Shown: in pieces, positions 38,772 to 42,658 of the stretch
Layout: the number at the start of each line of letters is the position of its first letter
Numbering within the stretch: the stretch's first letter is position 1
Source of the DNA: Bacillota bacterium
Lineage (GTDB): Bacteria > Bacillota > Dethiobacteria > Dethiobacterales > Dethiobacteraceae
Assembly (NCBI GenBank): GCA_018725565.1
Contig: QLUR01000022.1
Location: forward strand, 1 to 44,353
Length of the DNA: 44,353 bases
Reading direction: 5' to 3'
Notes under the pieces: generated by a model
What the model was told of the DNA's origin: nothing
Databases searched by the model: none
The model's input: the letters and a program-made list of their open reading frames with translations, nothing else
Position numbers and translations under genes: made by a program

Positions 38772-39648
38772 TTATGCTGCTTTACAATTATTGTATTTCC
38801 AGAGGATAGATGCCGGAGTCATATAGTTTAGGCTTTGGTGCCGACGCTTGCGGTTGTAGAATATCTCTATATACTCAAAAATAGCTCTCCGGGCTTCTTC
38901 CCTAGTCCTGAACTTTCGCAAATGGATCAACTCGTTTTTGATCGTGCTGAAAAAGGTCTCTGCAGCGGCGTTGTCGTAGCAGTTGCCCTTGCGGCTCATG
39001 CTGCAAAGCATACCGTACTTGGCCAGTATAGCTTGATAATCCTTGCTGCAGTACTGGACCCCACGATCCGAATGGTGGATAAGGCCTACCTACGGATGGC
39101 CGATGCGTTTAAATGGCGTTTGTAAGCGCCTGGATGGCTAAATCGCGTGTCATTGTGCTGGCAACTGCCCAACCAACGATCTGCTTATGGAAGAGGTCTT
39201 TCACCGTCGCTAGATAGTCCCAGCCATCCTCGGTCCCAATATAGCTGATATCACAGACCCAGACCGCATTGGGCTTATCCACCTTGAAGTTCTGATTCAA
39301 TAGGTTTTCTGCGACGGGTAGGTTATGCTTGGAATTAGTCGTTGCCTTGAATTTCCTAGGCCTTTTGGAATGGATGTTGTTAGCATTCGTAAATCGGTAG
39401 ACCCGTTTGCGGCTGCAGGGTCGAGCCTCTTTAACGTCCCTGTGGACCTTGTCCAAGCCGTAGATACCGCCACTCTCTTGATGGCTTTTCTTAATGAGCT
39501 CAAGCAATTTGGCATCCTCCTGCTCCCGCTTGCTGGGCAAACGGTTCAACCAAGCATAATAGCTGCTCCGCGACACATTAAGTGATTGGCACATCTTCTC
39601 CACCGGAAGTTCGGAGCTATGACCCTTGATGAACGGGTATATCATCAC
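38772..39648 (-). pseudogene. IS3-family transposase OrfB (DDE), frameshifted
   Basis: The N-terminal piece (39109-39648) has SSYYAWLNRLPSKREQEDAKLLELI, GIYGLDKVHRDV and WVCDISYIGTEDGWDYLATV, which includes the first catalytic Asp. The C-terminal piece (38772-39011) has [18 protein letters not shown] with the catalytic Glu and [17 protein letters not shown]. Between them, the [11 protein letters not shown] segment with the second Asp is readable only in shifted frames. Small indels, including a duplicated GTAG, lie within about 39090-39125. The protein cannot be made intact. Confidence 0.88.
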
Positions 39649-39935
39649 TTCTGGGGCGGTGTTGCGAAGATGGCCGTAGCCTTTTTTAGGATGGTCACCG
39701 TCTTTTCCAGATCCACCACGCGGCGGTTAGCCGCCTTCAACTCCGCCTCTAATTCTATAATCCGTACTTTGTCAGGCCTCTGCCTTGTCTTTTGCTGATC
39801 AAGCCATCGGTAGACGGTTTGTTCACTTATCCCCAGGTCTTTCGCCACACTGGCGCCGCTCCGCCCGTTGTCCAACACTAAGCGGACAACGCCATCCTTG
39901 AACTCCTTGTTATACCGCTTTTCTGTCTTTGCCAT
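39645..39935 (-). CDS. IS3-family transposase OrfA
   Basis: 96 residues with the helix-turn-helix KRYNKEFKDGVVRLVLDNGRSGASVAKDLGISEQTVYRWL and a leucine-zipper-like coiled coil (ELEAELKAANRRVVDLEKTVTILKKA). It overlaps orfB by 4 nt. The slippery heptamer A-AAA-AAG is at 39681-39687 on the minus strand and in the correct phase (cta aaa aag), the usual signal for the -1 frameshift that makes the OrfAB transposase in this family. Confidence 0.85.
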   Translation of the reverse strand: MAKTEKRYNKEFKDGVVRLVLDNGRSGASVAKDLGISEQTVYRWLDQQKTRQRPDKVRIIELEAELKAANRRVVDLEKTVTILKKATAIFATPPQK

Positions 39936-39987: not shown

Positions 39988-40234
39988 CCTTGCAGGGGCT
40001 TAACGGCGGATAGTATAACCGCACTACAAAAAACTACCTGTCTCAAGAGAGCCGGGATCGAATCTATTGCTGTACCCTGCAAATCCGCGGCAAAGTATCG
40101 GACCAGGGAAGCAGAGCGTCCAGAACACTCTTATCCTGGACATCCATATCCGGCAGTTTTTCAAAGAGATAGGTAAGGTATGTACTGGCATGCTATTTGT
40201 GTTGGTTGCCAAAAGCGTGGGTTCGGGAGTATTC
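39988..40234. other. Gap between the IS element and the c-di-GMP gene
   Basis: Holds no recognisable gene. One frame is open for roughly 75 codons (about 40010-40242) and reads NTLILDIHIRQFFKEIGK in part, but it has no ribosome site and no known family, so it is either chance or a remnant. The regulatory repeats of the next gene begin at 40235. Confidence 0.5.
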
Positions 40235-40279
40235 TTAACATAAATTTAAGGCAAATTTAACATAATATTTACATATAAT
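40235..40279 (+). promoter_or_regulatory. Four TTAACA-type direct repeats plus -10 box (PhoP-box-like promoter)
   Basis: TTAACA (40235), TTAAGG (40246), TTAACA (40257) and TTTACA (40268) are spaced exactly 11 bp apart, with 5-nt AT-rich linkers. A perfect TATAAT (40274-40279) follows directly. There is no good -35 box, as expected for an activator-dependent promoter. Hexamers of this type with about 5-nt spacing are the known binding sites of PhoP of Bacillus; other OmpR-family regulators use similar 11-bp repeats. The GGDEF-EAL gene starts 55 nt downstream. Confidence 0.7.
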
Positions 40280-40333
40280 GGTTGCCTTAAAGGGAGTTGC
40301 TGATATAAAATGGTTATACGAGAATAACCAGAG

Positions 40334-42658
40334 GTGAGCATTATTAGCAGGAATATCCCCAGGATGGCTTTAGACCTGATCCTTCGCCGCCTGCCTGAAA
40401 CGAATGGCTATTTTCATCCTTACAATCACACATCGCTATTGAACAAAGTCAGGCGGGCACTCGCTTCCGGCACACCGGTCGGGCTTGTGTTCCTGGATAT
40501 TAAGCAGTTCCATGAAATCTTGCAGTTCCGGGGTTCAGCGACTGCGAACCGCATACTGTTGCTGCTCGAGGGAACTCTGCAGCAAAAACTTGCCGAGGTA
40601 TTGCCCGTTGACCGCTTTTTGGCCGCAGAGCATCTGTGGGCCGATGACTTTGTAATTCTGTTGACCCTTCAAAAGACATTCCCGCAGGAATGTCTTTTTG
40701 ACTGGGCTTTGGCTTTTCGTTCATCTCTCAAGGAAGAACTGCACAACAGGCTGGAGCAGCTGGCAGGCTGCCCGGTCGACCTGCATCTGGGCTGTTCTGT
40801 AATTGAGCCTGATGATAGTCCAACAGATGACCTCAGGCTGTATAACGCGCTGCGGGAAGCTCAGAGAGTAGCCAAAGGAACACTTGGTTTGGATGTCTTA
40901 AAATACAAAAAAGAGTTTCTGGAAATACTCGATAACAAGCAGCTGAATACCCTTTACCAGCCAATCGTTTCACTCTCGTCCGGTGAAATTCTGGGCTGGG
41001 AGGCGCTTACCCGCGGACCGGAAAACAGCTACTTCACCCGGCCTGACATCATTTTTAAGTTCGCCGAAGAACTGGGTTTGCTGTTTGCCATGGAAAAGGT
41101 CTGTCGTGAAAAAGCACTCAGCAGCATCGGTGAGTTGGGTCCGGAGCAAAAACTCTTTTTAAATGTCCATCCGCGGACTATGAGCGACCCCAACTTCGTT
41201 AAAGGCGAAACGCTGCAGATACTGCATAACCACGGCCTGGTCCCGCGCAACATTGTGTTCGAAATTACGGAGCGACACAGCATTAAAGATTTCATCTCTT
41301 TTAAGCAGATTATTGAAAACTACCGAAGCCAGGGGTATCGTATTGCTATTGACGATGTGGGGGCCGGTTTTTCCGGTTTACAGACAATTGCCGAGATTCG
41401 GCCGGATTTCATTAAAATTGATATGTCACTTGTTCGGAACATTGACAGTAATTTGAGCAGGCAGTCAGTAGTAGCCGCCCTGAAAAGTCTGGCAGAGAAT
41501 ATCAACTGCAAGATTATTGCAGAGGGGATCGAAAGCCAAAATGAGCTAAATGCACTGCTGTTAAAGGGCGTGCACTATGCTCAGGGCTATTACCTTGCCC
41601 GCCCCCGGTTTCCTAAACCGACTGTTGCCGGTAATATAATTACTTATATCCGCCACCGGAAAATTACTGATCTTACCAGCCGGGGCCGTTACTTGTGTAT
41701 TGGGGATCTTGCCGTGTCGGTACCGGTGGTCGGAGAAGAAACACCTGTAGCAACCGTCAAAGAGCTGCTCGATGCCTCCAGGCAAGTCGACAGCAGTCTG
41801 GTGGTGCTCAAAGGCCAGCAGACCGTTGGGCTGGTAATGCGACACAACCTTCATCGGGTACTGAGCTCCCAGTATGGAGTGCCTCTCTATTACCAGCGCC
41901 CGGTAGCAAAGATAATGGACCAGGCTCCGTTGGTCCTGGATGGTCATACAGTTTTGGAGCTGGCAGCGGAATTGGCACTGAGCCGTGACCAAGACAAACT
42001 GTATGATGATCTCGTGGTTGTGGATACCAACGGAGTCCTGATCGGAGTCGTTTCTATTCAAAGGCTGCTCGAAACCCTAACCCGGATGCAAATAGAATTT
42101 GCCAAAGGAACCAATCCTTTGACCGGCCTGCCCGGTAATTTGGCCATCGGGGAAGAGTTGTCCAGAAGAGCCCGTTACGAGCCTTTCAGCAGCGTAATCT
42201 ATATTGACCTGGATGGCTTTAAGTGCTATAACGACACCTTTGGGTTCAAACACGGCGACCAGATGATTGTACTGCTCTCCAAAATAATTTTGCACTGCAC
42301 CCGCAAGTATGGCGGCGAAGAAGATTTTATCGGGCACATCGGCGGCGACGATCTGATTGTAATTACCACGCCGGAATGCGAAGAGCTAATCGGCAGGCAA
42401 ATTATTAAGATGTTCGACCGCCTGGTCAGTCGTTGCTTTCCTGTCGAGGACCAGTCCCGGAGAACATTTTACGGTTACGACCGATACGGCACACAAAGAT
42501 GGTTGCCCTTGACCTCTGTCACACTGGTCGTAATTGAATGCCGGAATCAAGGAGATTATGGGTCACTGGCAGAGACGGCCGCCCAGCTGAAGAAGTACGC
42601 TAAGGCAACTCCGGGTAGCAATTGTGTGCGGGACAGGCGCGCAAAAAGTTTGGAGTAA
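40334..42658 (+). CDS. c-di-GMP signalling protein, GGDEF(degenerate)-EAL-CBS pair-GGDEF
   Basis: 774 residues. About 25-190 is a degenerate GGDEF domain (WADDF at 102-106 in place of the signature). About 200-430 is an EAL phosphodiesterase domain with its key motifs kept: EALTRG (223-228), NVHP, EITERHS, DDVGAGFSGL (340-349), KIDMSL and AEGIE (396-400), so c-di-GMP cleavage is plausible. About 455-580 holds two CBS motifs, which often sense adenine nucleotides. About 590-750 is a second GGDEF domain (NPLTGLPGN, IDLDGFKCYNDTFGFKHGD) with GGDDL at 670-674, a departure from GGDEF that may or may not be active. No membrane segment. GTG 40334 has only a close GAGG before it; ATG 40364 is an alternative start. 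Confidence 0.9.
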   Translation: MSIISRNIPRMALDLILRRLPETNGYFHPYNHTSLLNKVRRALASGTPVGLVFLDIKQFHEILQFRGSATANRILLLLEGTLQQKLAEVLPVDRFLAAEHLWADDFVILLTLQKTFPQECLFDWALAFRSSLKEELHNRLEQLAGCPVDLHLGCSVIEPDDSPTDDLRLYNALREAQRVAKGTLGLDVLKYKKEFLEILDNKQLNTLYQPIVSLSSGEILGWEALTRGPENSYFTRPDIIFKFAEELGLLFAMEKVCREKALSSIGELGPEQKLFLNVHPRTMSDPNFVKGETLQILHNHGLVPRNIVFEITERHSIKDFISFKQIIENYRSQGYRIAIDDVGAGFSGLQTIAEIRPDFIKIDMSLVRNIDSNLSRQSVVAALKSLAENINCKIIAEGIESQNELNALLLKGVHYAQGYYLARPRFPKPTVAGNIITYIRHRKITDLTSRGRYLCIGDLAVSVPVVGEETPVATVKELLDASRQVDSSLVVLKGQQTVGLVMRHNLHRVLSSQYGVPLYYQRPVAKIMDQAPLVLDGHTVLELAAELALSRDQDKLYDDLVVVDTNGVLIGVVSIQRLLETLTRMQIEFAKGTNPLTGLPGNLAIGEELSRRARYEPFSSVIYIDLDGFKCYNDTFGFKHGDQMIVLLSKIILHCTRKYGGEEDFIGHIGGDDLIVITTPECEELIGRQIIKMFDRLVSRCFPVEDQSRRTFYGYDRYGTQRWLPLTSVTLVVIECRNQGDYGSLAETAAQLKKYAKATPGSNCVRDRRAKSLE

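Follow-up and report, generated by a model that had tools for sequence, protein, structure and literature searches.

Four hexamers that resemble binding sites for the response regulator PhoP precede a putative cyclic di-GMP (c-di-GMP) enzyme gene in the window (the whole stretch of DNA analyzed, 44,353 nt), raising the question of whether phosphate starvation controls c-di-GMP turnover in this bacterium. PhoP boxes in Bacillus subtilis have a consensus of tandem TTAACA-like hexamers. More generally, PHO operators consist of direct repeat units 11 nt long (PMC4415409, a review). The sequence comparisons suggest that the array is very likely a PhoP-activated promoter from which a probable c-di-GMP phosphodiesterase would be made upon phosphate starvation.

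The original prediction described four hexamers in 11-bp register with 5-nt linkers, followed at once by a consensus -10 element that lacks a -35 element. Coordinates and spacing were exact (Table 1): the boxes start at 11-bp steps, the linkers are 5 nt long, and the fourth box directly abuts TATAAT. No -35 element is assigned to this TATAAT because the letters 16 to 18 nt upstream of it read GGCAAATT. The promoter scan agreed, pairing no -35 element with it. Four TTWACA boxes at 11-bp spacing, with up to three mismatches allowed, had a single match in the window and none in 100 dinucleotide shuffles. A perfect 10-bp inverted repeat with arms TTTAAGGCAA (40245 to 40254) and TTGCCTTAAA (40282 to 40291) reaches from box 2 to a little beyond the -10 element. 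The repeat is not found in the Dethiobacter ortholog discussed below and may serve as the operator of another regulator. No phage similarity of the promoter was found.

Table 1. Features of the promoter and the gene behind it, in window coordinates; bit scores are against a matrix built on pho promoters of the same genome
Feature	Position	Strand	Remarks
Box 1, TTAACA	40235–40240	+	9.5 bits
Box 2, TTAAGG, weak	40246–40251	+	2.6 bits; TTAATC in the Dethiobacter ortholog
Box 3, TTAACA	40257–40262	+	9.3 bits
Box 4, TTTACA	40268–40273	+	3.4 bits; same letters in the Dethiobacter ortholog
-10 element TATAAT without a -35 element	40274–40279	+	Identical in the Dethiobacter ortholog
Perfect 10-bp inverted repeat	40245–40291		Encloses boxes 3 and 4 and the -10 element; not conserved
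GGDEF (degenerate)-EAL-CBS-GGDEF (GGDD) gene	40334–42658	+	774 amino acids from GTG; start codon tentative

The genome, from a Dethiobacter-related member of the Bacillota, comprises 2.67 Mb in 112 contigs, and the protein has its closest named relatives in Dethiobacter-type Bacillota. Genes for PstB, PhoU, an OmpR-family regulator, and a kinase are consecutive on contig C25 (32457 to 36068). PstB, PhoU, and the kinase exceed their NCBIfam cut-offs (for PnpS, 418.6 versus a cut-off of 400), and the OmpR-family regulator is under every named equivalog cut-off. Because those cut-offs are not reached, the regulator is called PhoP from its place in the pstB-phoU-phoP-pnpS cluster. The PhoP homologue on which the proposed phosphate link depends was found in this form.

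The motif that the original prediction would place at pst and pho genes was also found there. Searched for three boxes, the genome yielded 31 matches versus 9 in a reversed control, and several of the matches sit ahead of genes without a known phosphate role. The pstB gene is preceded by TTAACATTAACTTAACA at C25:32369, plus an in-register TTAACA ahead of TATAAT. Boxes TTTAACCAAAATTTAATCTTCTCTTAACA precede pstS, whose product exceeds the TIGR00975 cut-off, and boxes TTTAACCAAAATTTAATCTTGACTTAATC precede phnS2, which encodes a 2-aminoethylphosphonate-binding protein (TIGR03261 cut-off exceeded). With a matrix made from these three promoters only, the best window site by far was at 40234 (24.8 bits), the next nonoverlapping site scoring about 7 bits. 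The best score was 11.9 bits in 40 shuffles of the whole window and 17.2 bits in 3,000 local AT-rich shuffles.

Similar repeats have other settings elsewhere in the genome. The sole perfect three-box match (C36, 22455) was discarded as a candidate; it lies between two minus-strand genes, apparently tsaD-like and murC-like, with no same-strand gene behind it. These three perfect TTAACA boxes (C36:22400-22482; L002 1440-1540) stand beside several TTATCCACA-like DnaA boxes, and the site may be where an AT-rich origin is unwound, or a DnaA site of another kind. TTAAC arrays on contigs C24, C37, and C80 (L084 1501-1528, L089 1501-1528, and L087) are upstream of TTGAC-type -35 elements and precede an M48 peptidase gene and genes for secreted-looking proteins, a layout that differs from that of the pho genes. 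Repeats ATACTTCCAATAAAACAAGGATTGAAAC at C79:381 (L111) resemble a CRISPR array.

Orthologs of the gene were located with a genome scan, from which the best 80 of 303 loci were taken. The ortholog of Dethiobacter sp. CROMO_SB3 (G003, locus L028) is 77% identical across the shared part. Its promoter reads TTAACC-TTAATC-TTAACC-TTTACA in the same register, followed by the same TATTTACATATAATGGTTGC; the spacing from the array to the -10 element is the same, and the flanks differ. This ortholog is apparently without the N-terminal GGDEF domain and was used mainly in the promoter comparison. At the join (G003:C19; L028 1435-1530) the promoter is kept, the domain is seemingly lost, and no in-frame ATG, GTG, or TTG was seen. 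TTAAC boxes spaced at 11-bp steps are likewise present at three orthologs with 42 to 46% identity (G017, G047, and G049). The ortholog of a further genome, G019, stops at a contig edge and contributes no promoter.

The box consensus for the Bacillota scan relied on the window and its relatives. With it, the four-box score was strictly best at period 11 in 14 of 23 Bacillota lineages, with each other period from 7 to 16 best in at most one and little signal on the reverse strand; many loci in this and the following scan are related, so that the counts do not represent independent events. At Desulfobacterota-type loci, the boxes were YGTCAC, modeled on the Desulfovibrio vulgaris PhoB consensus YGTNAC (PMC3333781), and period 11 was strictly best at 23 of the 33 loci, three sequences of this phylum having already been inspected before the scan, with other periods best at no more than 3. 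The gene start is approximate at some ortholog loci, and some orthologs (for example, L147, L188, L173, L197, and L199) are without a clear array by this score. As a control, 13 other GGDEF/EAL genes from related genomes were scanned, and period 11 was best in none of them.

Arrays were also seen near other genes in the genomes that carry the orthologs. A further multibox array lies in the flank downstream of the G049 ortholog, apparently before a divergent gene for a secreted protein. On contig C171 of the related genome G019, four-box TTAACA arrays occur before a gene that looks UDP-glucose-dehydrogenase-like from its sequence (L061 352-390) and after one that looks glycosyltransferase-like (L076 1501-1539). 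These recall polysaccharide operons under Pho control, tua for example.

The neighbors of the orthologs, assigned with tblastn and NCBIfam, support a phosphate role independently of the motif. In Pelotomaculum the order is pstA-pstB-phoU-ortholog-phoP (L150), the same from pstB on at L161, and in Paenibacillus the ortholog follows pstA-pstB-phoU (L219), or the same genes from pstB on (L214, by tblastn). The Humidesulfovibrio ortholog is before phoB-like, pstB, and phoU genes (L171; L175 is similar but cut), and in Desulfomicrobium (L182 and L184) it adjoins a phoB-like gene, a kinase gene, and a partial pstB. The gene in the window has no pst neighbor and lies between an IS3-type transposase gene (39109 to 39935) and a Mutator-type transposase fragment. 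The C-terminal 52 residues of its product (window 42500 to 42655), a stretch that adjoins the Mutator-type fragment, recur at 100% identity at C34:14009-14164, which reflects either recent duplication or a repeat in the assembly.

Pfam recognizes EAL, CBS, and C-terminal GGDEF domains in the protein, and alignment places a degenerate GGDEF domain in the N-terminal part. The EAL domain has its full complement of metal-binding and catalytic residues, with roles as established for such domains: E223-A-L, N277, E310, D340-D341, K361, E397, and Q417 are invariant in six orthologs. The canonical GG(D/E)EF signature is absent, with WADDF at the N-terminal position in the window and GGDD at the C-terminal position in all six orthologs. 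Judged from these residues, cyclase activity of the GGDEF domains is doubtful, and c-di-GMP hydrolysis is the likeliest activity. B. subtilis YkuI (2bas), a Bacillota protein with an EAL domain, matches with an E value of 3.9e-15, but the match is confined to the EAL domain and YkuI has a different architecture. To our knowledge, YkuI has no phosphate link.

It is also conceivable that another OmpR-family regulator with 11-bp half-sites, for example a WalR/YycF-like protein, uses the array and that the signal is not phosphate. The genome has at least five further genes for full-length OmpR-type regulators, the one at C80:18805 being nearest to YycF (326 bits; cut-off, 340). Related regulators bind related boxes, and the C25 regulator falls below the named equivalog cut-offs. 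However, the boxes match those of the genome's own pst and phosphonate promoters, orthologs are placed in pst-phoU-phoP clusters, and the Desulfobacterota boxes take the published form of the PhoB box. We consider control by another regulator quite unlikely. The WalR/YycF version was rejected, as the regulator nearest YycF sits elsewhere, on C80, and the pst boxes favor PhoP.

Starvation might instead raise c-di-GMP, if PhoP represses the gene or if synthesis by the C-terminal GGDEF domain dominates. Pfam does recognize that domain, and a bound protein would be near the polymerase because box 4 abuts the -10 element. However, the promoter would need an activator because it has no -35 element, and the spacing from the array to the -10 element is retained in the Dethiobacter ortholog. 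The EAL residues are intact, whereas the GGDEF signatures read WADDF and GGDD. A rise in c-di-GMP is therefore unlikely. An origin of the array by chance in an AT-rich intergenic region, or as debris of the neighboring insertion sequence, would fit the AT-rich flank and the adjacent IS3-type transposase gene but is hardly credible. None of the 3,000 local shuffles reached the array score, and the retention of the array at orthologs with differing flanks already contradicts such an origin. Chance periodicity is ruled out by the shuffles, the period scans, and the control GGDEF/EAL genes.

Phosphate shortage probably turns the enzyme on, because the array matches the genome's own phosphate uptake promoters and recurs at related genes in two phyla. 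The phosphate link that the original prediction drew from the PhoP-type geometry is supported by the pst and phn boxes of the same genome, the ortholog arrays in two phyla, and the pst/pho neighbors. We infer PhoP binding, activation rather than repression, the direction of the enzyme, the CBS ligand, and the physiological output; activation is favored because of the promoter geometry and the company of pst genes. When phosphate is scarce, a PnpS/PhoR-type kinase would phosphorylate PhoP, which would then bind head to tail, lining up on the four 11-bp repeats and occupying a single face of the helix. Bound PhoP would replace the missing -35 element and recruit RNA polymerase to TATAAT. If transcription is assumed to start about 7 nt past TATAAT (near 40286), the boxes would span approximately -51 to -13. 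The intact EAL domain would most likely degrade c-di-GMP, with adenine nucleotides bound to the CBS domains possibly adjusting its activity, and c-di-GMP would fall during phosphate starvation, with output through c-di-GMP-I riboswitches and PilZ proteins. The genome has three such riboswitches and two PilZ proteins, which could read the change in c-di-GMP.

The promoter is like B. subtilis promoters of the pstS/phoA type, which PhoP activates, in having TTAACA-like boxes at 11 bp directly before a -10 element without a -35 element. Unlike in those cases, the gene encodes a c-di-GMP enzyme rather than a phosphate acquisition function, and binding here is predicted. Phosphate control of c-di-GMP is already known in Proteobacteria and has been reported for Desulfovibrio. 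In Pseudomonas fluorescens, rapA encodes a PhoB-activated c-di-GMP phosphodiesterase that is expressed in low phosphate (PMC3032545). The likeness to rapA is at the promoter and domain level, a Pho-box promoter before an EAL phosphodiesterase gene; the phylum and the Pho-box sequence are different, and low-phosphate expression, a property of rapA, is a prediction here. D. vulgaris PhoB (DVU1083) binds at genes with HD/EAL phosphodiesterase domains, as described in a report that also cites Vibrio cholerae as a further case (PMC3333781). The YGTNAC box of the D. vulgaris PhoB regulon fits the arrays at the Desulfobacterota orthologs, the likeness between targets being at the level of the HD/EAL domain class.

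No report of a link between phosphate and c-di-GMP in Bacillota or in the EAL-CBS-GGDEF family was found in the open-access literature. The part worth following is the apparently conserved phosphate link of this protein family in two phyla. It seems reasonably likely that the Pho regulon of Bacillota and Desulfobacterota has this family as a dedicated output, with each group using its own PHO box and the gene often in the pst-phoU-phoP neighborhood. In Gram-positive and sulfate-reducing bacteria alike, the finding offers a testable connection between phosphate sensing and the turnover of c-di-GMP, centered on one orthologous family, and several named species or strains carry the gene (Brevibacillus, Aneurinibacillus, Paenibacillus, and Nitratidesulfovibrio). 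It also offers a first likely physiological role for the apparently uncharacterized EAL-CBS-GGDEF family. If the proposal is correct, removal of c-di-GMP would be a core part of the phosphate starvation response well beyond the known proteobacterial cases.
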